Assembly: GCF_004216535.1 (NCBI RefSeq) | Contig: NZ_SGWX01000001.1 | Location: forward strand, 62,001 to 126,000 | Direction: 5' to 3' | DNA: 64,000 bases | Source of the DNA: Xylanimonas ulmi | GTDB taxonomy: Bacteria > Actinomycetota > Actinomycetes > Actinomycetales > Cellulomonadaceae | Part shown: positions 2,079-20,185 of the stretch, piece by piece | Position numbering within the stretch: the first letter of the stretch is position 1 | How the letters are laid out: the number at the start of each line of letters is the position of its first letter | Program-made: the position numbers and the translations under genes | The notes under the pieces: model-generated | Told to the model about the DNA's origin: nothing | What the model saw: the letters and a program-made list of their open reading frames with translations, nothing else | Database searches by the model: none

Positions 2079-2257
2079 CGTGACCTCCAGGTCGGTAGGT
2101 GGCGCACGCGGGTGACGTGAGGACGTCGAGAAGACTCCTCGTGGCTTCCGCACTGGTCAAGCGGCGAATCCACCTGATGAGACGGCGTCGGGCGCGCCGT
2201 GCTCGGCGCCGGGATCTATCCGACCTTCTTATGACACATCGTGGCAATACGCGTGAA

Positions 2258-2269
2258 TCACCCGGGTGA
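2258..2269. promoter_or_regulatory. Perfect 12-bp palindrome in the lysR/amine oxidase intergenic region
   Basis: TCACCCGGGTGA is self-complementary over all 12 bases and lies about 90 bases upstream of the amine oxidase start, in a locally AT-richer stretch. It is a candidate operator for the divergent LysR-type protein or another regulator; no binding protein can be assigned from sequence alone. Confidence 0.35.
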
Positions 2270-2344
2270 CGTGCTGCTTCTACGTTCGCGCTGTGCCGAC
2301 GGCGCCCCGTGGAACCGCGGGGCGCGTGGCTCGCCAGACCGTGA

Positions 2345-4033
<1,689 letters not shown>

Positions 4034-4045
4034 CCCTCGCCCGTC

Positions 4046-4079
4046 GGCGCCGGGCCGTCCGTCCGGACGGCCCGGCGCC
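4046..4079 (+). terminator. 15-bp perfect hairpin between amine oxidase and tatA
   Basis: Arms at 4046-4060 and 4065-4079 pair perfectly around a four-base loop, starting 12 bases after the amine oxidase stop. No T-run follows, which is usual for high-GC terminators. It may end most oxidase transcripts and let only some continue into tatABC, or protect the oxidase mRNA 3' end. Confidence 0.7.
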
Positions 4080-4131
4080 CCGATCCCCACAGTGCGCGGC
4101 GTGCGCCGCCTGGAGCCAAGGAGTCATCGAG

Positions 4132-4335
4132 ATGGGCATGCTCAAGCCGTGGCACATCATCGTGCTGGTCGTCGTCATCCTGCTGATCTTCGGGGCGCAG
4201 CGCCTTCCCGACCTGGCCCGCAGCGTCGGCCAGTCGCTCAAGATCTTCAAGAGCGAGGTCAAGGACCTCACCTCCGACGGCGAGCAGCCGCCCGTCGTCT
4301 CGACGGGGGCGCCGACTGCGGCGCCTGAGGCCTGA
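4132..4335 (+). CDS. tatA: Twin-arginine translocase subunit TatA
   Basis: 67 residues, a little short for TatA. One N-terminal membrane helix (about 8-22), the FGAQRLPDL hinge, then an amphipathic helix (LARSVGQSLKIFKSEVKDL) and a short polar tail. TatA oligomers form the transport pathway for folded Tat substrates. The ATG has AAGGAG ten bases upstream. It lies 98 bases after the amine oxidase and 18 bases before tatB. Since actinobacteria normally keep a housekeeping tatA-tatC elsewhere and tatB apart, this looks like a second, dedicated set; whether another exists cannot be seen here. Confidence 0.93.
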   Translation: MGMLKPWHIIVLVVVILLIFGAQRLPDLARSVGQSLKIFKSEVKDLTSDGEQPPVVSTGAPTAAPEA

Positions 4336-4353
4336 CGGCGAAGGGCGCAGACG

Positions 4354-4764
4354 GTGCTCGACATCAACGGTGGTGAGCTGCTGGTCATCGCCGTGCTCGC
4401 CGTCGTGCTGATCGGGCCCGAACGCCTGCCGCAGTACGCGCAGCAGCTCGCGACGCTCGTGCGCGACGCCAAGCGCTGGCTGGCGCAGGCCAAGGACCGC
4501 GTCGCCGACGAGCTCGGCCCCGACGTCGACGTCGACTGGTCGCGACTCGACCCCCGGGCCTACGACCCGCGCGCGATCGTGCGCGAGGCGCTGCTCGACG
4601 ACCTGCTGCCCGGCGGGGTCCGGCGACCGGCCGGCTCGGTCGAGGACGTCGCCGTGCGGCGCCCCCAGGGCGCGGTGTCGCTGCCCGACGAGCCCGACGG
4701 CCCTGACGAACCGGACGGCGTGGCGCACGGCGTCGGCGGCGGCCGCCAGGCCGAGGCGGCCTGA
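4354..4764 (+). CDS. tatB: Twin-arginine translocase subunit TatB
   Basis: 136 residues from a GTG start with AAGGG upstream. N-terminal membrane helix with the TatB-type Glu near residue 8 and the hinge GPERLPQYA; a long amphipathic helix follows, then the block DVDWSRLDPRAYDPR that is typical of actinobacterial TatB, and an acidic Pro-rich tail. TatB binds TatC and helps receive the signal peptide. It sits between tatA and tatC; the tatC ATG begins one base after the tatB stop. Confidence 0.92.
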   Translation: MLDINGGELLVIAVLAVVLIGPERLPQYAQQLATLVRDAKRWLAQAKDRVADELGPDVDVDWSRLDPRAYDPRAIVREALLDDLLPGGVRRPAGSVEDVAVRRPQGAVSLPDEPDGPDEPDGVAHGVGGGRQAEAA

Positions 4765-4765
4765 C

Positions 4766-5593
4766 ATGGCGTCACCGACCACGGCGCCCGCGCGCGACGC
4801 GTCCCGCGAGGCGCTGACCGACTCGCCGCCCGTCGACGGAGCGCGGGCGCCGGGCCGCCGCGCCCGCATGCCGCTGCGCGGGCACCTGCGCGAGCTGCGC
4901 ACGCGGTCGTTGTGGGTCGCGGTCGGCTTGGCGGTCGGGGCGCTGTTGGGTTGGGCGCTCTACGACCCGCTGCTGGCGCTGCTGACCCGCCCGCTCCACC
5001 TCGCCGCGTCGACCGAGCACCGGGACATCGCCCTGAACTTCACGGCGCTTGGCGCGCCGCTCGACATCCGGCTCAAGGTCTCGCTGTTCCTGGCGGTGCT
5101 GGTGACCTGCCCGTGGTGGCTCTACCAGGTCTGGGCGTTCATCACCCCGGGCCTGACCGCGCGCGAGCGGCGGTACGCCGTCGGCTTCCTCGGCGCGGCC
5201 GTGCCACTGTTCCTCGGCGGCGGGGCGCTCGCCTGGTGGGTGCTGCCGCACGCCGTCAACATCCTCGCCTCGTTCGCGCCCGAGGGGACGTCTCAGCTCG
5301 TCAACGCGCAGGACTACCTGACCTTCGTCATGCGGCTGGTGCTGGCCTTCGGGGTCGCGTTCGTGGCGCCGGTGCTGCTGGTCGCGCTCAACCTCGCCGG
5401 CGTCGTCCGTCACGAGCCGCTCGCCCGGGGCTGGCGCTGGGCGGTGCTGGCCGCGTTCGTGTTCGCCGCCGTCATGACGCCGACGCCGGACGCGCTGACC
5501 ATGGTGCTGGTCGCCGCGCCGATCTGCGCGCTCTACTTCGCGGCGCTCGGGGTGGCGGTGTGGCACGACCGCCAGGTCGACGTGCGCGTGTGA
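4766..5593 (+). CDS. tatC: Twin-arginine translocase subunit TatC
   Basis: 275 residues. A polar N-terminal extension of about 35 residues leads to the conserved cytoplasmic HLRELRTR motif, followed by six predicted membrane segments and the conserved PWWLYQVWAFITPGLTARER stretch in the first cytoplasmic loop. TatC recognises the twin-arginine signal peptide. It is the last gene of the amine oxidase-tatABC block; beyond it the strand and base composition change. Confidence 0.95.
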   Translation: MASPTTAPARDASREALTDSPPVDGARAPGRRARMPLRGHLRELRTRSLWVAVGLAVGALLGWALYDPLLALLTRPLHLAASTEHRDIALNFTALGAPLDIRLKVSLFLAVLVTCPWWLYQVWAFITPGLTARERRYAVGFLGAAVPLFLGGGALAWWVLPHAVNILASFAPEGTSQLVNAQDYLTFVMRLVLAFGVAFVAPVLLVALNLAGVVRHEPLARGWRWAVLAAFVFAAVMTPTPDALTMVLVAAPICALYFAALGVAVWHDRQVDVRV

Positions 5594-5916: not shown

Positions 5917-6579
5917 TCACCGATCGCCTCCACCAGCGTTCGTCAGACGGATCATGCGTCGCACGCCGTTGATCCAGTTCTCGCGCAGCGCCTCCTGCGC
6001 GGCCGGGATGTCTCCGTCGCACACGGCCCTCGCGATCTTCACGTGCTCAGCGGCCACACGCGAGACGACAGTGTGGTCGGAGACAAGCAGCCGCTCGTAA
6101 CGATGTATGGCCTGGCGCGTGTTCCGCATCATCTCGCCGAGCCTTTGGTTCGGGCAGCCGCTGGTGAGGAGTGTGTGCCATGCGTCGTCGTTCGCCGCGA
6201 CGTGTGCGAACTGGACGTGCTCGGCGCGGAAGTCCCCGGCGAGGGTCAGCAGGCGCCTCCCGATCTCCGGGAGCTGATCCGTTGCCGTGAGCGAGACCGC
6301 CAGGCCCTCGAGTGCGGAGACGATCGGCGCGAGCTCCTCGAGCTCCTCCGCGCTGAACGGCTTGAAACGAAAACCCTTTCCCTCAACCCAGTCGATCTGG
6401 TCGGCCTCCGCGAGTCCGATCAACGCCTCTCGCAGCGGAGTGCGACTCACTCCGAGGTCAGCCGCGAGTTGCGCCTCGCTGATGCTCTGGCCGGGCTCAA
6501 CAGCCCCTGAACGCATGCGAGCGAGCATCTCGTCGCGGACCTGGCTTCGCAGGGAGTGCCGTCGGATCTTCACGTTCAC
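5917..6579 (-). CDS. GntR-family regulator with FCD domain
   Basis: 220 residues from a GTG start that overlaps the stop of the upstream gene. N-terminal winged helix (LAADLGVSRTPLREAL) and an all-helical FCD ligand domain with conserved histidines around DDAWHTLL and AEHVKIARA, usually a metal site that binds a small carboxylate. It is the last gene of the nine-gene block and is probably the local regulator, responding to the substrate or an intermediate of the pathway. Its target operator is not evident. Confidence 0.9.
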   Translation of the reverse strand: MNVKIRRHSLRSQVRDEMLARMRSGAVEPGQSISEAQLAADLGVSRTPLREALIGLAEADQIDWVEGKGFRFKPFSAEELEELAPIVSALEGLAVSLTATDQLPEIGRRLLTLAGDFRAEHVQFAHVAANDDAWHTLLTSGCPNQRLGEMMRNTRQAIHRYERLLVSDHTVVSRVAAEHVKIARAVCDGDIPAAQEALRENWINGVRRMIRLTNAGGGDR

Positions 6580-7508
6580 CGCCCTTCGTCGGTCGTTCTC
6601 TGACTCAATCTCCGGGGCCAGATCGGCGGCATCTCGAGCCCGCGCCTGTCCGCACCTGCCTTCGGCAACTCCGCTCCGCGCGCTCCTCGTGTGTCGAGAG
6701 CCTGATTGCCAGAGTTGAGGAGCCGCACGGCCTGCGCGTGAAGCTCACGTGTCCCCGCTGCGAGACACGATGTGCCGTTGTGCAGCGTGATCGGCTCACC
6801 GAAGGCGTCGGTACACCACCCACCCGCGCCGTTGACGACCGGCACGAGCGCGCACACGTCCGACTCCACGACGTCACCACTCTCCACAGCGATGTCGAGC
6901 GCCCCCGACGCGAGACTTCCAAAGCCGAAGGAGCCAGAGCCATACACGCGCCAGGCCGTCGCCGCGCGGAGCGCGTTCGCTCCCGCCTCATGCTCCAGAA
7001 GGGTGACTTCTGGATATCCCCATGCGACAACCGCGTCTTCGAGGGATCGCAGGTCTCGAGTACTCGTCTCGACGCCGTTCCTCCGCGTGGCCGAGCCGAC
7101 CACGCCAACCCATCGATCTCCTGATGCGGGCGCATCGATGACGCCGATGACGGGCTCCGAGCGATGGCAAAGGGCGATCAGGGTGGTGAAGACCGGTATT
7201 CCCGCGGCAAAGGCACGGGTGCCGTCGATGGGGTCCAGGACCCAGACGAATTCGGCGTCCCTTCGCTCAGGCTCGAACTCCTCTCCGACGATGCCGTGCC
7301 GAGGATACTGGTCGTTGATTCGCGCACGAAGCGTGGACTCGACGACCAAGTCAAACTCCGTCGCCGGATTCGACTCGGATTTGCATTGAGCCGCGGCGCC
7401 CGCCGAGTTTCCAGAGAGCAGGCTGCGTGAGATGTCAGCGAGCTGCTCGGCGAACCCGACAAACTCCGCACGGCGAGGGTGATCCGAGAATGACTCAGTC
7501 TCGGACAT
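6576..7508 (-). CDS. Inositol-monophosphatase-family phosphatase
   Basis: About 310 residues. It carries the metal-binding motif WVLDPIDGTRAF of the IMPase fold, an upstream Glu (GIVGEEFE), and a C-terminal counterpart of the second motif, here ESDVCALVPVVNGAGG instead of the usual WDxAA. The changed second motif suggests a substrate other than inositol phosphate. I chose the ATG at 7508, two bases after the stop of the binding-protein gene; an ATG at 7532 would overlap it. Family members hydrolyse sugar, inositol or histidinol phosphates or PAP. In this block it may dephosphorylate a product of the neighbouring kinase-like protein, which is inference. Confidence 0.8.
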   Translation of the reverse strand: MSETESFSDHPRRAEFVGFAEQLADISRSLLSGNSAGAAAQCKSESNPATEFDLVVESTLRARINDQYPRHGIVGEEFEPERRDAEFVWVLDPIDGTRAFAAGIPVFTTLIALCHRSEPVIGVIDAPASGDRWVGVVGSATRRNGVETSTRDLRSLEDAVVAWGYPEVTLLEHEAGANALRAATAWRVYGSGSFGFGSLASGALDIAVESGDVVESDVCALVPVVNGAGGWCTDAFGEPITLHNGTSCLAAGTRELHAQAVRLLNSGNQALDTRGARGAELPKAGADRRGLEMPPIWPRRLSQRTTDEGR

Positions 7509-7510
7509 TC

Positions 7511-8506
7511 TTAACCCTGCGCCGCATTCCATGCCTCTTCGAACGCCTTGCGCTCGGCTGGGCTGTCCTTATCGTCGCGCACGATGTTCAAAGAGGACAG
7601 GCTCGGCAGGTCCAGGTATTCGCCAACTTCGATGTCGGTGCGGCTCGGGCGCCGGAACGTCTTCTCGAGAATCTTGATCTGTGTCTCCTTGGAGATCATT
7701 GCGTCGACAAGTCGCCGCGCGCCGTCGGGATTCGCTGCCTTCTCGATGACGGCGACCGCCTCGTAGGTGGTCGACACTCCGTCGCTGGGGTAGACGATCC
7801 TGATGCTCTCCTGGCCGCCGGCGATGTACGCGTAGATGTTGGACTCGTAACCGAGGCTCACCGCGTACTCGCCCTGCGCGACGGCGGGGTACAGCGTGTC
7901 CGTGTCGTCCGTGACCTCAAGATTCTGCACCAGCCGTGCGAAGTCGTCCCCGAGGGCCTTGTACGCGCCGTACAGCGCGGTGTACGTCGTGCCGGAGTCG
8001 AGGGGGTTCCCGGAGAGCACCTTTCCCTTCCAGCGAGGATCGGTGAGGTCGCTCCACGAACTCGGAATCGCACCCTCGGGCGTCTGGTCGAGATTCACCA
8101 TCAGCGCGGCCACATGGACGTTCTGCGCCGTCCATTTGTAGTCGGGCGCGACCGCGTCATCGGGTAGGGCGGCAGCTTCGGGCGACTGGTAGGAGGCGAA
8201 GAGTTCGGCATGCCCAGCGAGGACCCCGGGAACAGCGTTGCCGAAGACATCGGCGCTGTTGCTTCCGTCTTCGGCCGCAATGCGCTGCAGGAGCGCGCTC
8301 GTCGATCCCTGTTGCACGACGCTCACCTTGAGCGGGGGTTCGAGGGATCCGCCGGCTTCGGTGAAGTTCTGGTTCACCGTGGCGTTGTTGTTGCTGTAGA
8401 GCGTTACCGTGTCAGCGCTCGTTGGCGCGCGTTCGCCAGAGCACGAGGCAAGCGTCGCGGCAAGCACCAGCAGTGCCCCGCCTGTCGCCAGAGGTCGTCC
8501 CGTCAT
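7511..8506 (-). CDS. ABC transporter substrate-binding lipoprotein (Fe/2-AEP/polyamine type)
   Basis: 331 residues. Lipoprotein signal ending LAATLASC, with the lipidated cysteine at residue 22. The mature part has the type II periplasmic-binding fold: YSNNNATVNQNF strand, the ADVFGNAVPG region, and SWSDLTDPRWKGKV, which is common in FbpA/2-aminoethylphosphonate/thiamine binding proteins. AAGGAGTG lies upstream of the ATG. It follows the permease and ATPase genes. The ligand is unknown; the neighbours suggest an amino-containing organic compound rather than iron. Confidence 0.88.
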   Translation of the reverse strand: MTGRPLATGGALLVLAATLASCSGERAPTSADTVTLYSNNNATVNQNFTEAGGSLEPPLKVSVVQQGSTSALLQRIAAEDGSNSADVFGNAVPGVLAGHAELFASYQSPEAAALPDDAVAPDYKWTAQNVHVAALMVNLDQTPEGAIPSSWSDLTDPRWKGKVLSGNPLDSGTTYTALYGAYKALGDDFARLVQNLEVTDDTDTLYPAVAQGEYAVSLGYESNIYAYIAGGQESIRIVYPSDGVSTTYEAVAVIEKAANPDGARRLVDAMISKETQIKILEKTFRRPSRTDIEVGEYLDLPSLSSLNIVRDDKDSPAERKAFEEAWNAAQG

Positions 8507-8534
8507 GGTCTCACTCCTTCTGTGCGGTGGGCTT

Positions 8535-10214
8535 CTACGTGAACAGTCTGACTTTGAGAACTCGCGTTGCGACGAGAATGGGAGCCAGGGCGAGCACGCA
8601 AAGGACGAGCCCGTATGCCGCTGCCTGTCCGTTCATTCCGGCGAACATGAGTTGGAAGATCCGGATATTGATGGTCTCTTGGCCGGCGGAATAGACGACG
8701 AGAGAGGCGCTCAGTTCGCCAATGATGGTGACCCAAGTGAGGATCGCCGCTGCCGCAATCCCTGGAAGCATGAGCGGAAGGACCACGCGAGCGAAAGAGC
8801 GCAGGGGTGGGACGCCCAGACTGACCGATGCCTCCTCGATCGACTCCGGAATCGAGTGGATGCTGCCGGAGGCGCTTCGCACGCCGTGGGGGAGCCTGCG
8901 CACAACGAAGACGAGTATGATGATGAGCGCGGTGCCGGACATATTCCAGGGCCGTCCTCCGAACGACATGACCACTCCGATGCCGAGCACGGTTCCGGAC
9001 AGAGCCTGGGGGAACATGACGAGATAGGAGAGGAGGGGAGACAGGAGGTTCTTCTTTCGCACAATGACCGTGCTCACGACAGCGCTGAGAATGACGCCGA
9101 TGATACACGCGACACCTCCGAAAACCAGCGTATTCCTGATCGGGTAGGGATCCGAGACCATGATGCTTGCGAAGTTGTCGACGGAGAACTCCCCCCAGTG
9201 GAGCACGGGCCCGGTGCTCTTGGTGAACGCCATCACCGCGGTCAACCCGAAAGGCAGGAGCGTCGCTGCGACGATGATCGTTGCGATACTCGTCAACGCG
9301 AAGCCGTGCGGTCCTCGCAGGGGGATCGGCGTCCAGGATCTACCCTGGACCATGTGGTAGCGACGCCCGCCGATAAGGAGGTTCTGTCCGAGGAGCGTGA
9401 GAGCGATGATTGCCACTGACACGGTCGCCAGGGTGCTCTGCATCTTCGGATCGGCTCCCGTCTCGGCCAGGAAGACCCTGTAGGTCATCGGGGCGAGGAG
9501 TTCGACGCGCTTTCCCACAACCGTGGCGGTTGTGAAGTTGCCCAAGGTGAGAGAGAAGACGAGGATGGTTGTTGAGAGCACGGCGGGGAGGATTGCTGGG
9601 ATAGTGACTCGCACGCGGGCCCTGAAGGGCGTTGAGCCGAGGCTCACCGCCGCCTCCTCCAATTGTGAGTCGAACCCCTTGAATGCGGCCAGTGTCCCGA
9701 GGTAGACATAGGGAAATGAGAATAGCGGCATCACAAGCAGGAGGCCGGCCCAGCCGTACATGCTCGGGAACCCGATCCCCACGTCGCGCAGCCAGTTGCT
9801 GACCACTCCGTTGTTTCCCAGCAGCATGAGCCAGGACTGCGAGATGATCAGTTCGGGGATAAGGAGTACGGCGATGGGAAGTGTGCCGAGCACGGACTTT
9901 CCCCAGAACCGATAGCGCGTGTTGAAGTAGGCGAGAAAGACTCCGATGACTGTTGAGATCGCTGAGACGAGCGCAGAGAGCAAGAGCGAGTTCCTCAGCG
10001 CTCTGAAGTACTTCCCCTCCGTCACGAACTCTCGCCAGCCGTCGAGTCCGCCACCGGTGGCTACGGAGCGAAGGATCACGTTCGCGATCGGCGTCACAAC
10101 GAAGATGAGCGCGAGCGCGACCGAGATCACGGTGAAGACCAGCCATGGTGAGAGGCTCTGGCCGGGAGTCCTCGGCGCCGGCGGGTGTGTCGGCGCCGGG
10201 CGGGAGAGCCTCAT
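8535..10214 (-). CDS. ABC transporter permease, fused double-domain (FbpB/ThiP type)
   Basis: About 559 residues with two homologous halves, each of about six membrane helices and a binding-protein-dependent transport loop (EEAAVSLGSTPFRA in the first half, EEASVSLGVPPLRS in the second). Both coupling loops are intact, so one chain can form the whole membrane channel. The ATG at 10214 overlaps the ATPase stop; an upstream in-frame ATG would overlap further. This arrangement is typical of iron, thiamine, putrescine and 2-aminoethylphosphonate importers. Confidence 0.9.
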   Translation of the reverse strand: MRLSRPAPTHPPAPRTPGQSLSPWLVFTVISVALALIFVVTPIANVILRSVATGGGLDGWREFVTEGKYFRALRNSLLLSALVSAISTVIGVFLAYFNTRYRFWGKSVLGTLPIAVLLIPELIISQSWLMLLGNNGVVSNWLRDVGIGFPSMYGWAGLLLVMPLFSFPYVYLGTLAAFKGFDSQLEEAAVSLGSTPFRARVRVTIPAILPAVLSTTILVFSLTLGNFTTATVVGKRVELLAPMTYRVFLAETGADPKMQSTLATVSVAIIALTLLGQNLLIGGRRYHMVQGRSWTPIPLRGPHGFALTSIATIIVAATLLPFGLTAVMAFTKSTGPVLHWGEFSVDNFASIMVSDPYPIRNTLVFGGVACIIGVILSAVVSTVIVRKKNLLSPLLSYLVMFPQALSGTVLGIGVVMSFGGRPWNMSGTALIIILVFVVRRLPHGVRSASGSIHSIPESIEEASVSLGVPPLRSFARVVLPLMLPGIAAAAILTWVTIIGELSASLVVYSAGQETINIRIFQLMFAGMNGQAAAYGLVLCVLALAPILVATRVLKVRLFT

Positions 10215-11293
10215 GACCTCATCACCAGGACGTCTTCGCGTGGAAACTCCACGCACACACGGTCACCGGGTCCGAAGCCTGGCTCCGAGGCCGCCGTGGA
10301 CACCTCGATCTCCTGACCGCCCGGAACGCGCACACGGTGGACCTGGCGTGAGCCGAGGAACTGGTGCCTGGTCACTTCGCCGCGCACAGCGGCCCCCAAC
10401 GTGAGAGCCGCGGCGGAGGCCCCTGACAGCCGCAGGGCCTCGGGTCGCGCAACCGCGAAGACGTCGGCGCCAACGAGTTCGGTGCGCGCGACTCCGCAGA
10501 GGGTCGAATCTCCGAGACGAACATCGACGGGGTCACCCGGGACGAACCGCCTGCCCTCGGGAAGGGCCACGCGAAGGACGTTCGCCGCGCCGATAAAGTC
10601 GGCTGTATAGGTCGATACCGGGTTGCGGTAGACGTCGGAGGGGCTCCCCAGTTGGTCGATCGTTCCTGCGCGCAGGACGGCCATCCGGTCGGAAAGAGCA
10701 AGTGCCTCCTCTTGATCGTGTGTCACGAACACTGTCGTGATGCCGAGCTCACCCTGGATGTCGCTGATCGACTCCCGCACCTGAACGCGCAGCTTCTTGT
10801 CGAGATTCGACAGCGGCTCGTCCATCAGGAGCACCCTGGGCTTGATCACGAGGGCGCGTGCGAGCGCCACCCTCTGTCGTTGCCCACCGGAGAGCGCGGC
10901 AGGCATCCGATCCCCGAGTCCTGCGATGCCCACCCTCATGAGTACCTCGTCGACCAGTTCTGCGATATCAGATCGATTCGTCTGCCGTGCCTTGAGGCCG
11001 TAGGCGACGTTAGCGTTGACAGTTCGATCCGGGAACAGTGCATAGTCCTGAAACACCATGCCGATCTCACGGCGGTACACGGGCAGCTCTGTCACTGCGG
11101 TGTCGCCGAAGTGGATTTCACCGGACTCGGGGCTGATGAAGCCTGCGATCGTGCGAAGCAGTGTTGTCTTGCCGCAGCCCGAGGGTCCGAGGAGCGTGAA
11201 GAACTCTCCGTCCCCAATAGATAGACTGAGATCGTCGAGCACTCGGTTGCCGCCATACGCGACGCTGAGTCCGTCGATCGTAATCGAAGTCAT
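10211..11293 (-). CDS. ABC transporter ATP-binding protein (PotA/FbpC type, TOBE domain)
   Basis: 360 residues. Walker A GPSGCGKTT, Q-loop (VFQDYALFPDRTV), signature LSGGQRQRVALARAL, Walker B LLMDEPLSNLD and the H-loop THDQEEAL are all intact, followed by a C-terminal TOBE domain (about 240-355). It powers import through the fused permease. AAAGGAGT precedes the ATG. It starts 68 bases after the SDR gene, the largest gap inside the block, so an internal promoter is possible. Confidence 0.93.
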   Translation of the reverse strand: MTSITIDGLSVAYGGNRVLDDLSLSIGDGEFFTLLGPSGCGKTTLLRTIAGFISPESGEIHFGDTAVTELPVYRREIGMVFQDYALFPDRTVNANVAYGLKARQTNRSDIAELVDEVLMRVGIAGLGDRMPAALSGGQRQRVALARALVIKPRVLLMDEPLSNLDKKLRVQVRESISDIQGELGITTVFVTHDQEEALALSDRMAVLRAGTIDQLGSPSDVYRNPVSTYTADFIGAANVLRVALPEGRRFVPGDPVDVRLGDSTLCGVARTELVGADVFAVARPEALRLSGASAAALTLGAAVRGEVTRHQFLGSRQVHRVRVPGGQEIEVSTAASEPGFGPGDRVCVEFPREDVLVMRS

Positions 11294-11361
11294 TGCGGAC
11301 TCCTTTCGTTGTCGACGCTGACAACTGAACTGTGAGTGCGCTGGCCGCCCAGGGGTGGCGC

Positions 11362-12120
11362 CTAGGCGGTGCCTCCGCCGTCGACCACAATTGACGCACC
11401 GGTGATGTAGCTGGCTCTGTCGCTCGCGAGCCAGACGACGGCCTCGGCGACCTCGTCGGGAGTTCCCATCCTGCCCAAAGGGCGGTCGGCGGCTTGGTCC
11501 CTGAAGGCGATCTCATCCTGTCCCAACTGACGCGCCTCGTCGCGCACCATTTGGGTGAGGACGTCGCCGGGGTTGACGGAGTTCACCCGGATGCCCTGAC
11601 TGCCGTGGTCGATCGCGAGCGCCCGAGACATGTTGACCACGGCGCCCTTGGACGCGCAGTAGGAGATCGCGTTGTCGCCGCCCTTCAGTCCCCATCCGGA
11701 GCCTGTGTTGACGATCGATCCGCCGCCTTGGGCGGCCATGATGGGAATCACCCGTCGTGAGACGAGGAACACCGAGCGGACGTTGACGCCCATGACGAGG
11801 TCCCAGTCGTCGACGTTGGTGTCGAGGATGTTCGTGCGGCGAATGATGCCGGCGTTATTGAAGAGCACGTCGACGCGGCCGTATGCGCTGAGCACCTCAT
11901 CGACGGCGGCGTCGACGGCGATGGCGTCGCTGACATCCACCTCGATCGCGATCGACTCGCGTCCGGAGTCGCGGATGTCCTGAGCGACCTGCGCAGCCGC
12001 AGCGTGGTCGATGTCGAGCAGGGCGACCCGGGCTCCCTCGCGCGCCATGGCCTTCGATGTCGAGGCCCCGATCCCTCCGCCGCCTCCGGTGACGATGGCG
12101 ACTTTTCCCTCAAGCAACAC
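11362..12120 (-). CDS. Short-chain dehydrogenase/reductase
   Basis: 252 residues, the usual length. Cofactor motif TGGGGGIG at 11-18, NNAG at 88-91 and catalytic Y154/K158 in SYCASKG. D36 after the second strand suggests NAD(H) preference. The GTG start has AGGAGG five bases upstream and overlaps the end of the kinase-like gene. It probably oxidises an alcohol intermediate of the pathway encoded by this block; the substrate is unknown. The C-terminus (GASIVVDGGGTA) is normal for classical SDRs. Confidence 0.88.
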   Translation of the reverse strand: MLLEGKVAIVTGGGGGIGASTSKAMAREGARVALLDIDHAAAAQVAQDIRDSGRESIAIEVDVSDAIAVDAAVDEVLSAYGRVDVLFNNAGIIRRTNILDTNVDDWDLVMGVNVRSVFLVSRRVIPIMAAQGGGSIVNTGSGWGLKGGDNAISYCASKGAVVNMSRALAIDHGSQGIRVNSVNPGDVLTQMVRDEARQLGQDEIAFRDQAADRPLGRMGTPDEVAEAVVWLASDRASYITGASIVVDGGGTA

Positions 12121-13240
12121 GCGCTCCTCCTTTGGTCGCGCTCCGCAATCGGTATCGGCTCGTCGTCCGGACGCCGGTGATGACTGTCACGACTCCGCTG
12201 AGTCGGTCATCGGTGGCGGCGTCTCCTGAGTCGATGAGCAGGGGGCGCCCCTGCAGGTCCAGGAGTTTCTGCTCCGACGCCACGACGATGAGGTTCGTGG
12301 GTGGGATGGCGTCCAGGACGCGATGCGAGATCTGCTGGTTTCCGCGTCCGATGACAAATCCGTGCCCGCCGATGACCGAGACGACGATGCTGAGGGGTGA
12401 CCCGGTGGCGACTTCCAGGAGGTCGGCCTCTGACGCGTCGCGGACAAGAGGTACGCCGTCTCGCACGATGTCGACGCCGAGCGGGCCCTTGTCGTAGCCG
12501 ATCAGCCGTGCGAGCTCCCGCATCGTGCTGCCAGGACCGATGGCCGTCGTTCGCTCGGCGCTGACCCTTGCGAACGCCCCTTGGGCGGCGGCGGCGACGG
12601 CGTCTCGCTCGCCCGTGGGGACGGAGCCCTTTCGCGCCTGAGTTCGGCCTGCGATGACCGGCACCCTCATGACGCTGTACACCGTCGGGGCGACGACCTT
12701 CTGTCGCAGCGTCTCCTCGTCGACGTCGAGTACGTCTCGGACTGCCGTCGGCACGTGGCCGCCTTCCCAGGCCGCTGCGGTCGCGCCAGCCGCCTGGGGT
12801 GAGACTCCGAAGACGCCGGAGTACATCTTGACGCCGCTTGGCACGCCGAGTCCTGCGGCGCCATCGGGTAGCGACAAGGCCACGTCCCGTGCGGTTCCGT
12901 CGCCACCGGCGAAGAGCACGAGATCCACCCCCTCGTCGATGAAGGCTCGTACGGCGGCCACCGTGTCGCATGCTCTTGTCGGGTATGTCGGGCTGAAGAC
13001 CACTCGTGGCGAGAGCGCCGCTTCGCGGACGGCGTCCTCGCCCATCCTCCCCGCGACGGTGACCAGCCGGGCTGAGGGGACCTTCCGGGCGACCACACGC
13101 AGCGCCTGCGCCATGCGTTCGTGGGCGCGTGATCGTCCGCCGCGCGCCTCTGCAAGCCGCTGGATGTCGACGCCGTCGGAGCCGGACAGGCCCGCGGTTC
13201 CGCCGACCCCAGCCACGGGGTTCACCAGCACGCCGATCAT
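12110..13240 (-). CDS. ATP-NAD kinase-like protein, COG3199/AcoX family
   Basis: About 376 residues. Begins MIGVLVNPVAGVGG and has the diacylglycerol/NAD-kinase-fold motif FAGGDGTARDV (GGDGT at 112-116), then GVPSGVKMYSGVF, which is characteristic of the COG3199 family. That family includes AcoX of acetoin operons; its true substrate is mostly unknown. The ATG overlaps the stop of the GcvPB-like gene. Being encoded inside a catabolic operon rather than with NAD metabolism argues against ordinary NAD kinase. It may phosphorylate a pathway compound, with the phosphatase-family protein downstream acting later. Confidence 0.82.
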   Translation of the reverse strand: MIGVLVNPVAGVGGTAGLSGSDGVDIQRLAEARGGRSRAHERMAQALRVVARKVPSARLVTVAGRMGEDAVREAALSPRVVFSPTYPTRACDTVAAVRAFIDEGVDLVLFAGGDGTARDVALSLPDGAAGLGVPSGVKMYSGVFGVSPQAAGATAAAWEGGHVPTAVRDVLDVDEETLRQKVVAPTVYSVMRVPVIAGRTQARKGSVPTGERDAVAAAAQGAFARVSAERTTAIGPGSTMRELARLIGYDKGPLGVDIVRDGVPLVRDASEADLLEVATGSPLSIVVSVIGGHGFVIGRGNQQISHRVLDAIPPTNLIVVASEQKLLDLQGRPLLIDSGDAATDDRLSGVVTVITGVRTTSRYRLRSATKGGARVA

Positions 13241-14814
13241 GGCGACCCACGCGTTCCGAAGTACTTGCGGCGGTAGGCGCGCCAGGTGACTGCCCATCGC
13301 TCGGGATCATCGAGGTCCGCGTGCTCAGTCCGGTGCACGGTGGAGCGGTGCGGAGCAGTCTGAACTGTCTCGGGGCTCTCGTGCGCCTCGCGGCTCACCT
13401 CGGCGAGCGATGCCGCATAGAGATCGAGCTCCTGCCTCGAGTAGGACTCCGTGGGCTCGAGCGTGAACGGCTGTGGCACGACGTGCGGATGATGACTCGT
13501 CCAGTAGTGCAGGCCGTAGTCAGCCATCCGGAGTCCGATCTCCTCGGAGCTCACGCCCGTGGCCTCGAAGAGCTCTTTCCAGGAGTACCGCACTTGCTCG
13601 ATCCGGCGTCGGCCCTGGGCATAGGGGACGCTCGCCCCGGGAATCCGGCGCACGAGTTCAAGCAGATAGTTATTGTTGAGCACCGCGATTTCGGCGACCT
13701 CGCGAAGACCCTCTGCGCCGAGCGAGCGAATCCAGGAGTACGCGCGCACAATGTTCGGCACGACCCCGTAGAACGGCGCGACCGCACCGATCGATCGAGG
13801 CGCCGCACCCGTCGTGACGAATCGATCGCCCTTTTTGACCACTCGTGGACCAGGCAGGAGCTCCGCGAGCTTCTCAGTCACTGCGTTCACGCCGCCTCCG
13901 GGCCCGCCAGACCCGTGGGGCGTGCTGAAGGTCTTGTGAAGGTTGAAGTGGCAGAGGTCGAACCCGGCTTCGCGTGCACGGGTGATCCCGAGTATGCCGT
14001 TGGCATTGGCCTGATCATAGGAGGCGAGGGCGCCGACGGCGTGCGCTGTCTCCACCCAGCCTCGAATGTCTGGGTTGAAGATCCCCGTATCCTCTGGATT
14101 CGTGACCATGATCGCGGCTGTGCGGTCGCTGATCGCCGACTCGAACGCGCCGCGGTCCGGATAGCCGCTCTCGTCCGGATAGATGGTGATGACGTCGTAA
14201 CCCGCAGCCTTGGCCGCCGCCGCGTTCGACGGATGGCTGAAGATCGTCGTGATCACCTCGCGCCGCCGCCCGCCCTCGCCACGGAGGTCGTGATACGCGC
14301 GGATGAGCGAGGCGTTCATCCAGATTGCCGACGAGCCGCCTTGGGTCTGCAGCGACACCGCATCCATCCCGGAAATTGCCCTCATTATCTCCTGAAGTTG
14401 CCAGATGATCTCCAGCACACCCTGGACATCGTCGTCGTCCTGCATGGGGTGCAAGGACTTGAGCTTCGGTGTGTCGATGAGCCGTTCGTTGACCTTCGGC
14501 GAGTACTTCATCGTGCAGGTCCCTTGGCCGACATCGATGTTCAGATCCGCGCCAAGGGTTCCCTGCGACAGGCGCAAGTAGTGCTTCAGGACGCGCATCT
14601 GCCCGATCTCGGGGAGGTCGAGGCGCGATCTGCGACGGAGGGACTTCGGGACGAGGGCGGCCGCGTCGCCGACCACCGCGGAGACTTCGGATTCGACGGC
14701 GGACACGAGGACGCCCCGTTGCCCCGGCGCGTGGAGATCGAAGATGATCCGCTCGTCCCACCGGGCTTGGTGGAACCGGGGAAGATGCGGCTTCGGCAGG
14801 AGTGGAAGGCTCAT
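13237..14814 (-). CDS. Diverged GcvPB-like PLP enzyme (glycine dehydrogenase subunit 2 family)
   Basis: 525 residues, near the usual length. The PLP lysine K294 lies in NLHKTFSTPHGSGGPGGG, as in the glycine cleavage P-protein. Other normally constant pocket stretches differ: TQGGSS at 157-162, SHPSN at 193-197 where the family has a HGTNPAS-like segment, and DQANAN near 267-272 where the family has DGANLN. The start overlaps the GcvPA-like stop. P-protein subunits decarboxylate glycine and pass the aminomethyl group to a lipoyl H-protein. No H, T or L gene is present here, so it either uses housekeeping partners or acts on a different amino acid. Confidence 0.85.
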   Translation of the reverse strand: MSLPLLPKPHLPRFHQARWDERIIFDLHAPGQRGVLVSAVESEVSAVVGDAAALVPKSLRRRSRLDLPEIGQMRVLKHYLRLSQGTLGADLNIDVGQGTCTMKYSPKVNERLIDTPKLKSLHPMQDDDDVQGVLEIIWQLQEIMRAISGMDAVSLQTQGGSSAIWMNASLIRAYHDLRGEGGRRREVITTIFSHPSNAAAAKAAGYDVITIYPDESGYPDRGAFESAISDRTAAIMVTNPEDTGIFNPDIRGWVETAHAVGALASYDQANANGILGITRAREAGFDLCHFNLHKTFSTPHGSGGPGGGVNAVTEKLAELLPGPRVVKKGDRFVTTGAAPRSIGAVAPFYGVVPNIVRAYSWIRSLGAEGLREVAEIAVLNNNYLLELVRRIPGASVPYAQGRRRIEQVRYSWKELFEATGVSSEEIGLRMADYGLHYWTSHHPHVVPQPFTLEPTESYSRQELDLYAASLAEVSREAHESPETVQTAPHRSTVHRTEHADLDDPERWAVTWRAYRRKYFGTRGSP

Positions 14815-16199
14815 TGCCGCGCCCCGTTCTGCGCGTCGACGTCGCCCAGAGCCGCGGCGATGGCGTCTGCGAGACGGTCGATCTCCTCGCGCGTCGTCAT
14901 CTCCGTGACGCAGATGAGCAGACTCCGTTCGTCGAGCACGACACCCGCGTCGATCTGTGCGCGGCGGGTCGCCGCGACGACGTCGACCGCGCTCGCGCTC
15001 TCGAACTCGACGCAGAACTCTCGGAAGTGCAGCGCGGGGTCACTGAGCCTGGCGCCGGGGATCGCTGCGACTCGCCGCTGCGCGTAGGCGGTGCGGGCGA
15101 GGATGGTCTCGCCAATGTCGCGCATTCCGCGGGGTCCCATCAGGGCGAGATAGACGCCAGCGGCGATACCCCAGAGGGCGGCTGCCGTCCCCACCCACTC
15201 CTTCCCCTCTTCGCGCAGCGCGAACGACGTTCTTTCGTAGGCGACGTCTCCGAAGCCGAGTTCGCCCGGCACGGATGTGCTCGCGAGGCCGAAGAGGCGA
15301 GACGGCAGCTCCATCACGAACTGAGGGTCGTCGTGCAGTGCGATGAAGCCGCCGCGGGCGCCGCCAAACCACTGGTGCAGACCAAGTGACTGGATCTCGC
15401 CGGTGACGATGTCGGCACCCAACCCCGCGGGCGGCTCCAAGACGCCGTAGAGAAGCGGCTCCGTGCCGACCACGACGATTGCCCCCGCTGCGTGGGCGAG
15501 CTGCGAGATCTCTGACAGGTTCTCCTCGATCGATCCCCGCACGCTGGGTGTCTCAATCCAGACGGCCGCGACATCGTCGTCGAGTGATGCGGGAAGCGCG
15601 GAGATGTTGGCCACGCTGGCGCTCGTCGGGATTGTCTCGACGCTGAGGAACCCGCTGACGAAGTCGCGGACCTTGTCGAGCTTGTGCGGGTGAGGGTCGC
15701 TCAACTGCAACACGCGCCGACGCCCGGTGATGCGGCCCGCCATGGCGACTGCGGTTGCCGCCGCCTGGTAGCCGTCGTAGGTCGGAACGTTGACGACATC
15801 CATCCCGAGGAGCTCCCCCATCAGGGATTGGTATTCGAACAGCGCTTGGAACCGTCCGTGGTCGTCGTACGGTTCACCGGCGTAGGCGGTGAGGAACTCG
15901 CTCCGTCCGATGACCTCGTCCACTACTGCGGGCACCGAGTGCCGATAGACCCCGAAACCTAGAAACGAGGTCCGCTCATCCGTGGATGCGTTTCTGGACA
16001 GGAGATCCGCGACGTGTCGCGCGAGATCCTGCTCCACCGGCAGCGCCGGGGGGAGGTCGAGTGCACCCTGTACGCGCAACGCCTCGGGCACGTCTGCGAA
16101 GAGTTCTTCGACACTCGTCGCATTGATTGCGTCGAGCATCGCCTGACGCACCTCAGAGGCGGAGTTTGGAATGTACGGATGAACGTAAGACAGCGGCAT
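14811..16199 (-). CDS. Diverged GcvPA-like protein (glycine dehydrogenase subunit 1 family)
   Basis: 462 residues from the ATG at 16199, chosen because GAGG lies ten bases upstream and the protein then starts in the normal family position (YVHPYIPNS). The fold is clear (FEYQSLMGELLGMDV at 121-135, then NVPTYDGY). However, the stretch AGEPYDDHGR at 107-116 replaces the usual PYQPEISQG-type segment, and 325-338 (SFALREEGKEWVGT) replaces the highly conserved REQHIRREKATSNICT-type segment. These changes suggest altered substrate or partner recognition. It is the first gene of the nine-gene block and carries its promoter region. Confidence 0.83.
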   Translation of the reverse strand: MPLSYVHPYIPNSASEVRQAMLDAINATSVEELFADVPEALRVQGALDLPPALPVEQDLARHVADLLSRNASTDERTSFLGFGVYRHSVPAVVDEVIGRSEFLTAYAGEPYDDHGRFQALFEYQSLMGELLGMDVVNVPTYDGYQAAATAVAMAGRITGRRRVLQLSDPHPHKLDKVRDFVSGFLSVETIPTSASVANISALPASLDDDVAAVWIETPSVRGSIEENLSEISQLAHAAGAIVVVGTEPLLYGVLEPPAGLGADIVTGEIQSLGLHQWFGGARGGFIALHDDPQFVMELPSRLFGLASTSVPGELGFGDVAYERTSFALREEGKEWVGTAAALWGIAAGVYLALMGPRGMRDIGETILARTAYAQRRVAAIPGARLSDPALHFREFCVEFESASAVDVVAATRRAQIDAGVVLDERSLLICVTEMTTREEIDRLADAIAAALGDVDAQNGARQ

Positions 16200-18268: not shown

Positions 18269-19215
18269 GCCCGACGCCGTCGCTCGGCGCGGGCCCGCCC
18301 GTCCTGGCGTTCGACGTCGGTGGGACGAGCATCAAGGGCGCGCTCATCGACGCCGCGGGGACCGCTCACGGCGTCACGCGTCTGCCGACGCCGGCCGCGG
18401 GCCCGACGTCCGCGCAAGCCGTGCTCGACGCCGTCGCGCGTCTCGCCCCCTCGCTGACCGCGCAGGCGCCCGAGGGCGTCGCGCCGACGGCGCTCGGCAT
18501 CGCGGTGCCGGGGGTCTTTGACGACGAGGCGGGCGTCGGCGTGTACTGCGAGAACCTCGGGTGGCGCGACGTCGACTTCCGCAGGCTGGTCCGGGCGGGC
18601 TTCGACCTGCCCACCGTGGTCGGCCACGACGTGCGGTCGGCCGGACTCGCCGAGATGGCGGTCGGCGCGGGCGCGGGCGCCCAGAACGCGCTCGTGCTCG
18701 CGCTCGGCACCGGGATCGCCGCCGCGGTCTTTGTGCGCGGCGAGCCCGTCACGAGCGGGGGCTTCGCGGGCGAGATCGGGCACACGGTCGTCGTGCGGGG
18801 CGGCGAGGCGTGCGCGTGCGGCAACCAGGGGTGCCTGGAGGCCACGGCCTCGGCCGCGGCGATCGCCCGGCGCTACAACCGGGCGCGCGGCGCCCGGGTG
18901 TCCGGATCGCGTGAGGTGCTGGCCGCCGCACGCGCCGGCGACGCGGTGGCGCGCGCGGTCTGGGCGTCCGCCACGGACGCGCTCGCCAGCGCGATCGCCC
19001 CGTGCGTCGGCCTGCTCGCGCCCGAGGTGGTCGTCCTGGCCGGTGGGCTCGCCGAGGCGGGCGACGCGCTGCTCGCCCCGGTCGTCGCGCGCCTCGACGA
19101 GCTGCTGACCGTCACCCCGGCGCCGCCCGTCGTCAAGGCGACCGCGGGCGAGAACGCGGGGCTGCTCGGCGCCGCCCTGCGCGCCCGGGCCGTGGCCGAG
19201 GCGGGCTCGCGGTGA
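18265..19215 (+). CDS. ROK-family sugar kinase
   Basis: 316 residues from a GTG overlapping the previous stop. ATP-binding FDVGGTSIKG near residue 16, the ROK catalytic region and the zinc motif CACGNQGCLE after GEIGHTVV are intact. There is no N-terminal HTH, so it is an enzyme rather than a ROK repressor. It likely phosphorylates the incoming sugar or amino sugar before the SIS protein acts. Spacing is tight, so it is translationally coupled with the genes on either side. Confidence 0.87.
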   Translation: MSPTPSLGAGPPVLAFDVGGTSIKGALIDAAGTAHGVTRLPTPAAGPTSAQAVLDAVARLAPSLTAQAPEGVAPTALGIAVPGVFDDEAGVGVYCENLGWRDVDFRRLVRAGFDLPTVVGHDVRSAGLAEMAVGAGAGAQNALVLALGTGIAAAVFVRGEPVTSGGFAGEIGHTVVVRGGEACACGNQGCLEATASAAAIARRYNRARGARVSGSREVLAAARAGDAVARAVWASATDALASAIAPCVGLLAPEVVVLAGGLAEAGDALLAPVVARLDELLTVTPAPPVVKATAGENAGLLGAALRARAVAEAGSR

Positions 19216-20183
19216 TCGTCACCCTGACCCCCAACCCCGCGGTCGACCTCACCATCGCCGCCGACGCGATCGCTCGCGGCGGCACGAGCGTCGTGGACGC
19301 CGCGTCCGCGCGCGCGGGCGGCAAGGGGATCAACGTCTCGCGCGTCCTGGCCCAGGTGGGCGTCGCGACGCGGGCCGTGGCGCCCGTGGGGTCCGCCGAG
19401 GCTGCCTGGTTCGCCGCCGACCTGGCCGGCGTGGGCCATGCGCTGATCGAGTGCGACCGGCCGACCCGCCGCTCGTACGCGCTGCACGAGGCCGCCGCCG
19501 ACGTCACCTCAGTCGTCAACGAGCGCGGCGCCCCACTGGCGCCCGGGGAGTGGGCGCGCGTGCTGCGCGCCCTCGACGCGGCGCTCGCCGCCGGCCCGCG
19601 TGGCGACCCGGCCGCGGCGCTCGCGGTGTGCGGCTCGATCCCGCCCGGAGCCCCGGACGACCTGGTGGCGCGCGTCGTCGCGCTCGGCGCCCGGTGCGGG
19701 GCGCCCGTCGTCGTCGACACCTGCGGCCCCGGCCTGTTGGCCGCCGCACGGGCGGGGGCGACGCTGGTCAAGCCCAACCGCGACGAGCTCGCCGAGGCGG
19801 TGGGCGACGCCGGTCCGCTCGCCGGAGCGGCGGCGCTGCAGGCGCTCGGCGCGCGCGTCGTGATCGTCTCGCTCGGCCCGGACGGACTGGTGGTCGTCCC
19901 ACCCCGCGGCCCGGCCGTCCGCGCGCGCCTGGCGGCGCCGCTGCGGGGCAACCCGACGGGCGCGGGCGACGCCGCCGTCGCCGGAGCCGTCTCGCTGCTG
20001 GTCGACGCCCCGCTCCGGCGCGCCCTGCTCGGCGGCGAGGTCGCCGCGACGACGGCGGTCGCGCGGCGCGCGGCGGCCTGGTCCGCGGCCGCGGTGCTCA
20101 TGCCCCGTGCGGGCGAGCTCCACCCCGACCACCCCCGGCTTGAGCGCGAGCTCATGGTCGAGGCCATCGACCGCAGGGAGTGA
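19212..20183 (+). CDS. PfkB-family hexose-phosphate kinase (tagatose-6-P / fructose-1-P kinase type)
   Basis: 323 residues from a GTG overlapping the ROK stop. N-terminal ribokinase motif GGKGINVSRVL at 36-46 and the C-terminal anion-hole motif NPTGAGDA with catalytic D253. The start MIVTLTPNPAVDLT is typical of FruK/LacC. With the following class II aldolase it would make a 1,6-bisphosphate and split it. FruK and LacC cannot be separated by eye, but the SIS and ROK neighbours favour tagatose-6-phosphate. Confidence 0.87.
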   Translation: MIVTLTPNPAVDLTIAADAIARGGTSVVDAASARAGGKGINVSRVLAQVGVATRAVAPVGSAEAAWFAADLAGVGHALIECDRPTRRSYALHEAAADVTSVVNERGAPLAPGEWARVLRALDAALAAGPRGDPAAALAVCGSIPPGAPDDLVARVVALGARCGAPVVVDTCGPGLLAAARAGATLVKPNRDELAEAVGDAGPLAGAAALQALGARVVIVSLGPDGLVVVPPRGPAVRARLAAPLRGNPTGAGDAAVAGAVSLLVDAPLRRALLGGEVAATTAVARRAAAWSAAAVLMPRAGELHPDHPRLERELMVEAIDRRE

Positions 20184-20185
20184 TG

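Follow-up and report, generated by a model that had tools for sequence, protein, structure and literature searches.

A mosaic gene block of Xylanimonas ulmi pairs a predicted paralogue of glycine dehydrogenase with a putative NAD-kinase-superfamily kinase

Among the described systems closest to the locus considered here is the CobD route, in which a threonine kinase makes the O-phosphate and CobD, named threonine-phosphate decarboxylase in NCBIfam, decarboxylates it. TrpB2 enzymes use O-phospho-L-serine (Busch et al. 2014, as cited in PMC11917138), and a phosphonoalanine cluster, comprising palA–palE and palR, is described in PMC10574752. Here we report an analysis of a nine-gene block in the actinobacterium Xylanimonas ulmi, at positions 5917–16199 of a 64,000-nucleotide stretch (the window; bases 62001–126000 of the 3.97-Mb single-contig genome, with coordinates given in window numbering). 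The block encodes GcvPA-like and GcvPB-like subunits (PA and PB) of a pyridoxal phosphate (PLP) enzyme, a kinase, an SDR oxidoreductase, an ABC importer consisting of an ATPase, a fused permease and a solute-binding protein (SBP), an IMPase-family phosphatase and a GntR regulator. We propose, with a probability of roughly 40%, that the block is an operon gained by horizontal transfer for the catabolism of a hydroxy-amino acid handled as its O-phosphate, the leading candidate being O-phospho-L-serine (or -threonine).

A recurrent core in a mosaic block

The kinase alignment A1 was scanned against a genome collection, and the best 80 of 587 confirmed matches were analysed as loci; a plasmid search with the kinase matched 13 records, and 12 regions were read. 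A core locus is one in which a PA- and/or PB-like gene accompanies the kinase, with the window's own locus (L002–L005) excluded from the counts, together with L089, a true glycine cleavage system (GCS) locus that carries both GcvT and GcvH. The core was found in 44 loci: 35 of the best 80 of the 587 genome matches, 7 of the 12 plasmid regions and two loci of a phylum sample (L007 and L008). In 39 of these loci, the kinase has both PA and PB no more than 4.5 kb away; in the remaining five, the contig or locus ends there (L008, L049, L070 and L007) or a fragment of PB is found at a distance of about 9.6 kb (L039). The taxa, as given in record titles, include Actinobacteria, Chloroflexi, Bacillota, Pseudomonas, Bathyarchaeota, Heimdallarchaeota, Marinimicrobia and Gemmatimonadetes.

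The window SDR has a homologue scoring above 230 bits in 14 of the 44 core loci, and the GntR regulator has one in four (L031, L032, L033 and L037, the closest actinobacterial relatives), where it is 46–55% identical and lies upstream of the core on the opposite strand. Neither the window IMPase nor the window SBP has a match in the core loci. The block, described in the earlier note as one nine-gene unit, is instead a mosaic of the core (PA, PB and kinase, often with the SDR), a GntR gene common to the closest actinobacterial relatives, and an importer and IMPase cassette, for which Paracoccus and Shinella gave the most similar arrangement found.

The neighbours of the core include both glycosidases and genes of amino-acid metabolism. 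A GH42 gene stands upstream of PA in L031 (Pfam), with homologues detected by tblastn in L032, L033 and L037, and a GH2 gene adjoins the core in L035 (Pfam), with homologues in L039 and L055; an MGH1-like hydrolase and an aldose epimerase are also present in L055, and a sugar-type SBP in L037. Amino-acid permeases are among the neighbours in L039, L070 and L080 (Pfam), and an APC transporter is annotated in L018 and L020. M20 deacylases occur in six core loci (tested in three), class III aminotransferases are also among the neighbours, and MTTB, a Kbl-type enzyme and a threonine-dehydrogenase-like gene occur in L061, L042 and L036, respectively. A hydroxy-amino acid would be one compound that suits all these settings: glycosides, amides and phosphate esters could each release it, and it could be imported as an amino acid.

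These neighbourhoods bear on another reading, in which the core degrades a glycoside aglycone, an amino-polyol or aminosugar acid that a glycosidase would free, the SDR oxidize, the kinase phosphorylate and the PLP pair decarboxylate or cleave. We regard this reading as unlikely but serious, because the glycosidase-bearing loci include the closest relatives of the window core. However, the window block itself has no glycosidase, and the amino-acid permeases, M20 deacylases, class III aminotransferases and MTTB neighbour of other core loci speak against it; an aglycone that was a hydroxy-amino acid would be compatible with the O-phosphate pathway that we propose. Sphingosine-type, hydroxylysine and 1-amino-2-propanol pathways were also considered because of the kinase, PLP enzyme and glycosidase genes, and were set aside, with no gene specifically in their favour.

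The kinase and its neighbours

The kinase carries the motif GGDGTARD, identified from alignment conservation, and its NAD_kinase Pfam domains exceed their cut-offs (60.4 versus 25.5 and 49.5 versus 23.7 bits). Profile A1 gave no match at 1e-3 to solved sequences, NAD kinases included. The AlphaFold2 (AF2) model of the kinase has a pLDDT of 90, and a Foldseek search with it returned weak partial matches, diacylglycerol kinases among them, none at 1e-3. The protein is a remote member of the NAD-kinase/diacylglycerol-kinase superfamily; the COG3199-type label of the earlier note is kept here as an assumption. The kinase family is common in one archaeal phylum, occurring in 97 of 196 genomes sampled from the phylum of a Methanothrix bin.

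TrpB2 was looked for in the 30 archaeal loci that matched a single Methanothrix kinase best, each with about 1.5 kb of flank. In 13 of the 30, TrpB2 lies directly upstream of the kinase on the same strand (L153–L160, L168, L173, L175, L176 and L178), and L077 is a further case with TrpB2 upstream. L075 belongs to the same contig as L153, and this genome has a second kinase with a TrpB2-type match adjoining. In a midpoint-rooted kinase tree, the kinases of the window, the actinobacterial and plasmid core loci and the TrpB2-linked archaeal loci fall within one clade (support 0.993), and the core kinases do not form a clade of their own (several nodes being weak). The tree suggests a single shared kinase activity with repeated recruitment. 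A related kinase gene of Peptoclostridium overlaps that of a HisC/CobD-like PLP enzyme, which scores below both cut-offs. Judged from gene neighbourhoods, the simplest common substrate of the kinase would be a serine/threonine-like hydroxy-amino acid, and the TrpB2 linkage suggests that the archaeal kinase may be an unrecognized serine kinase feeding TrpB2.

Near stand-alone kinases, members of a PdxB-like gene family occur at distances of up to 10 kb in 12 loci (tested against Pfam in L054 only, with PF02826 and DUF3410), and an ECF transporter component is found in L048 and L096. The PdxB-like dehydrogenase was seen near the kinase in Gammaproteobacteria, including L046, L054, L093, L099 and L106; in other Gammaproteobacteria, the gene nearby is that for EpmC (tested in L044) or for YfcL (tested in L023).

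A cofactor role could be read from some of these data: the kinase would act on NAD or vitamin B6, the importer would take up pyridoxal phosphate, and the block would thereby provide its PLP enzyme and its SDR with their cofactor. The NAD-kinase Pfam domains, the PdxB-like and ECF neighbours, an SBP match to the PLP-binding protein 6wce (1.5e-15) and the dependence on PLP of every one of the TrpB2, CobD-like and GcvP-like partners are in its favour. We nevertheless consider it improbable, as the X. ulmi genome contains four further NAD-kinase-domain matches, three of them over the cut-off, A1 matches no solved NAD kinase, a glycoside or catabolic operon would be an unusual place for a cofactor kinase, and the relatives of the importer adjoin phosphonoalanine-type enzymes.

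A family separate from the glycine cleavage P-protein

We compared PB with true P-proteins in a FastTree phylogeny of 95 PB-type sequences (arbitrarily rooted; sequences of up to 380 residues and exact duplicates left out). The 44 members of the core module form a group that contains no true P-protein and is set off by a long stem (branch 0.76, support 0.41), which we read as a split. Residues were counted, in window numbering, over 43 module and 51 true rows, with L008 dropped as the same gene as L184 and the duplicates L134–L139 left out. Eight positions separate all 43 module rows from all 51 true rows (module/true): T99/S, P195/G, D242/T, N247/E or D, W361/Y or F, E or D406/H, R409/V or I, and Y, W or F458/E. 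Other residues are also module-specific: H441 is present in 43 of 43 module rows and 1 of 51 true rows, R404 in 42 of 43 module rows, and R512 and K517 in 41 of 43 each. The PLP lysine K294, in the HKTF region, is kept in every row of both sets, and H293, D267 and N270 are invariant in both. The PB-like family also has a conserved C-terminal extension.

The PA subunit diverges in a loop that reads AGEPYDDHGR in the window and YTPYQPE[IV]SQG in the true GcvPA of L089, Tth GcvPA and human GLDC. The YTPYQPE.SQG loop is absent from all 29 module PA rows readable there (of 37, eight being blank) and present in the single readable row of the four true ones. Y161 and Y164 of human GLDC presumably lie in this loop. 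Both residues are labelled as active site in PMC7259800.

A full-length, better-scoring true GcvP is encoded elsewhere in the X. ulmi genome, at 3294101, and a second, better GcvP2_C match (E < 1e-16) occurs in 24 of 30 core-bearing genomes; the six without one include several partial metagenome bins. Neither GcvH nor GcvT is among the nine block genes, and a single query each, a weak criterion because these genes may lie elsewhere, detected GcvH in no core locus and GcvT in one (L040). Glycine cleavage is rejected by residue signature, tree and paralogy: because the tree splits, eight positions separate the two sets and a better-scoring true GcvP coexists, PA and PB are very unlikely to be part of a GCS. 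They are instead a paralogous family, separate from glycine dehydrogenase and with its own residue signature, so that the divergence reported in the earlier note stands but the description of these enzymes as merely diverged does not.

The same evidence makes it quite improbable that the pair is a second glycine dehydrogenase, passing its aminomethyl group to a lipoylated H-protein encoded elsewhere, with the kinase and SDR incidental. Both subunits do exceed the NCBIfam GcvPA and GcvPB cut-offs (436 versus 364 and 534 versus 441 bits), plasmid homologues are annotated as gcvPA/gcvPB, and the PLP lysine, H293, D267 and N270 are kept; against this stand the lost PA loop, the eight separating positions, the better true GcvP here and in 24 of 30 genomes, and the lack of GcvH in the core loci with one query. 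With plasmid copies annotated as glycine dehydrogenase and the window copies above the cut-offs, metabolic reconstructions may falsely credit such genomes with glycine cleavage, and the PB residue signature allows re-annotation.

Importer and phosphatase

Importer relatives were compared in six regions read from 15 plasmid records with an SBP homologue. In Variovorax, Pseudosulfitobacter and Sinorhizobium meliloti, the homologous importer adjoins a PLP aminotransferase and phosphonopyruvate hydrolase or a member of its superfamily, an arrangement that resembles the palA–palE cluster. In Paracoccus pantotrophus, P. denitrificans and Shinella plasmids (L231, L233 and L235), the genes form a cassette in the order IMPase–ATPase–permease–SBP, with the Shinella ATPase split into two features. 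The window IMPase is 39–44% identical to the cassette IMPases, and the window ATPase is 56% and 54% identical to those of the P. pantotrophus and P. denitrificans cassettes (the two compared) and 49% to that of Variovorax. The window permease is 46–48% identical to those of the Paracoccus and Shinella cassettes and 36–46% to those of the three phosphonoalanine-type clusters, and the window SBP is 35–41% identical to the six SBPs (36–41% for the cassettes and 35–40% for the phosphonoalanine-type clusters). Its matches in the PDB are 8x1a (9e-19), 4r72 (7e-17), 6wce and 4r6y (6e-9). The IMPase scores 213.4 bits against NCBIfam HisN (TIGR02067), below the cut-off of 275.15, and at 1e-45 it matches nothing in the phylum sample (395 other genomes); two other places in the X. 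ulmi genome encode IMPase-family proteins.

Phosphonoalanine is a carbon isostere of O-phosphoserine. An importer and phosphatase cassette for a phospho-amino acid would fit these data, because the importer relatives adjoin phosphonoalanine genes and the two compounds are isosteric. A phosphonate (2-aminoethylphosphonate) degradation operon is very improbable and uptake of this compound was rejected, because the NCBIfam names that suggest it come with scores far below the curated cut-offs (PhnS/PhnS2 for the SBP, 84.1 versus 310 and 78.7 versus 392.75 bits; PhnU2 and PhnT2 for the rest of the importer, with the permease at 169.1 versus 593.25 and the ATPase at 338.1 versus 457.7; phnR for the regulator, 65 versus 272), and Pfam and NCBIfam name no C–P cleaving enzyme among the nine proteins.

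A proposed pathway

In the O-phosphate pathway that we propose, the ABC importer would take up a phospho-amino acid, or the kinase would make the O-phosphate from a free hydroxy-amino acid; the class of substrate, the sequence in which the enzymes act and the chemistry of the PLP enzyme are inferred. The phospho-amino acid would be bound by the GcvPA/GcvPB-like enzyme as an external aldimine at K294 of PB, and the enzyme would remove CO2, as in its parent enzyme. R404, R409, H441, R512 and K517 of PB are candidate phosphate-binding residues, and these module-specific side chains would suit an anionic substrate. After CO2 loss, protonation would give an amino-alkyl phosphate, or expulsion of phosphate would give an aldehyde and ammonia. 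The IMPase-like enzyme may dephosphorylate the imported ester or the decarboxylated product, the SDR may oxidize the free hydroxyl, and GntR would control the operon. Two lines point to a phospho-amino acid, and they rest on different genes: the kinase family adjoins the O-phospho-L-serine-dependent TrpB2, and the importer and IMPase form a cassette, with relatives beside phosphonoalanine-type genes. Uptake of an amino compound through a dedicated importer, PLP chemistry, SDR oxidation and kinase and phosphatase steps, the scheme of the earlier note, are all consistent with the data, which support that overall reading in part.

Several observations weigh against this pathway. The kinase occurs without PA or PB in 45 of the best 80 of the 587 genome loci and in 5 of the 12 plasmid regions, and neighbours of the stand-alone kinase such as Tex, chorismate synthase, a 5'-3' exonuclease or a disulphide oxidoreductase give no hint of a phospho-amino acid. 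No strong TrpB2 lies within the flanks of 17 of the 30 archaeal loci (two have a weak match of 29%), which are moreover best hits to a single kinase. The closest core relatives sit in glycoside loci (GH42 in four and GH2 in three), and an amino-polyol stays a serious rival substrate because of this setting. The best solved relatives of the SBP are named as iron-binding proteins, with the PLP-binding protein third; in the SBP tree, the window protein falls in neither the phosphonoalanine-type nor the cassette group, a neutral placement. The P. pantotrophus cassette continues into genes of the proline racemase and Ldh families, and the cassette ligand may be a hydroxyproline-like compound. We know of no activity for any core member. 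The weakest point of the scheme is that a phosphatase and a kinase acting on one compound are futile unless they act on different species.

A literature search returned no description of the core and, in agreement with the earlier note, no described pathway with this gene set, which is weak evidence of absence as most subscription journals lay outside its coverage. A wider proposal, that bacteria and archaea share an undescribed pathway in which an NAD-kinase-fold kinase O-phosphorylates serine/threonine-like substrates, a lipoate-independent relative of glycine dehydrogenase couples decarboxylation to phosphate elimination, and the same kinase family supplies O-phosphoserine to archaeal TrpB2, is doubtful as a whole. 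If true, it would add a new reaction to the GcvP family, catalysed by a P-type PLP enzyme without a lipoyl partner, assign a function to a common kinase family and provide a route from serine to the O-phosphoserine needed by TrpB2.

Composition and boundaries of the block

The nine genes (Table 1) all lie on the minus strand and contain no internal stops, confirming the direction, order and overlaps given in the earlier note, and no other locus examined here showed the nine genes in this order. Overlaps measure 4 bases for PA/PB, PB/kinase and IMPase/GntR, 11 for kinase/SDR, 46 for ATPase/permease and 22 for SBP/IMPase, and gaps of 68 and 28 bases separate the SDR from the ATPase and the permease from the SBP. 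The start codons of the PA and kinase genes are our choice. A sigma-70-type promoter scan gave no match, one terminator-like site was found, fewer than in shuffled sequence, and Rfam and tRNA scans of the whole window gave no matches.

Table 1. Genes of the block and its left boundary, in window coordinates
Feature	Position	Strand	Evidence
GcvPA-like subunit, 462 aa	14811..16199	-	Pfam GDC-P 4e-61 (longer start); solved relative 1wyt_A 8e-57
GcvPB-like subunit, 525 aa	13237..14814	-	NCBIfam PRK04366 534 bits; 1wyt_B 9e-81
Kinase, NAD-kinase/diacylglycerol-kinase superfamily, 376 aa	12110..13240	-	Pfam NAD_kinase 3e-16, NAD_kinase_C 4.5e-13
SDR oxidoreductase, 252 aa	11362..12120	-	adh_short_C2 2e-65
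ABC importer ATPase	10211..11293	-	Domain match; 49-56% to cassette/Variovorax ATPases
Fused ABC permease, two BPD_transp_1 stretches	8535..10256	-	Domain match
SBP, lipoprotein-like N terminus (LASC, by eye)	7511..8506	-	Domain and family matches
IMPase/HisN-like phosphatase, 318 aa	6576..7532	-	Inositol_P 9e-42
GntR/FCD regulator	5917..6579	-	Domain match
Left flank, amine oxidase to TatC (boundary, outside the block)	2231..5593	+	Conserved in same-genus genome G010

The lower G+C content of the block noted earlier was upheld, with 0.650 (65.0%) in the block versus 0.745 (74.5%) in the remainder of the window, and the three hand counts behind it were exact (32, 41 and 48 of 60). Composition is not uniform over the window: 76 windows of block size to the right of the block range from 0.732 to 0.760, all above the block. 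The G+C content at third codon positions (GC3) is 0.73–0.85 in the nine block genes and averages 0.917 in 27 other likely genes of at least 250 residues, a comparison biased by a filter that required GC3 above 0.8.

In the same-genus genome G010, the left flank is kept at 85% identity, the match breaks off close to where the block begins on the left, at about 5581, and the DNA to the right of TatC differs from the window; beyond this conserved flank, no exact empty site was found in G010. The two flanks of the block share a 15-base direct match. A search for the kinase in 58 relatives gave one weak 42-residue match and nothing better, and the phylum sample (395 other genomes) yielded two strong (E < 1e-55) and nine weak (4e-6 to 9e-4) matches. 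For the PB-like gene, just two other genomes of this sample exceed the scores of ordinary GcvPB by a clear margin (755 and 492 bits; next, 347). Because left-flank conservation stops near the block edge, and the kinase and PB-like genes are rare in relatives or the phylum sample, the comparison supports probable horizontal acquisition of the block, with the left edge as the one compared in relatives.

The left flank comprises, at 2360–5593 on the plus strand, an FAD amine oxidase with a Tat-like N terminus (by eye), a small open reading frame and TatC. A second TatC-type match lies at 1229351 in the genome, and the amine oxidase–TatC stretch looks like a putative dedicated Tat export unit. To the right of the block, at 18364–21019 on the plus strand, a ROK kinase, a PfkB kinase and a class II FBP-type aldolase stand in a row with native composition, likely a sugar-phosphate operon.

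Comparison with known systems

The module resembles the split GCS P-protein of Thermus (1wyt) in being a two-subunit PLP enzyme with the HKTF lysine region and homology over most of its length. Relative to this P-protein, the module PA and PB have lost the YTPYQPE.SQG loop, changed HG to HP, T to D242, Y or F to W361 and H to E or D406, and gained R404, R409, H441, the C-terminal extension and a kinase alongside. With CobD, the L-threonine-phosphate decarboxylase, the block would share synthesis of an O-phospho-amino acid by a kinase and its decarboxylation by a PLP enzyme, an analogy that we propose; CobD, of the HisC type, has a single chain, whereas the block enzyme is a GcvP-type pair. The block kinase has the GGDGTARD motif and the N- and C-terminal NAD_kinase domains in common with NAD-kinase-family proteins, and differs in lacking a solved profile relative and in having partners that suggest an amino-acid substrate. 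By homology, the ABC importer of the block is shared with the pal cluster of Variovorax Pal2, but in place of the PalA phosphonopyruvate hydrolase and the PalB transaminase the block has an IMPase and the PA–PB–kinase–SDR core.

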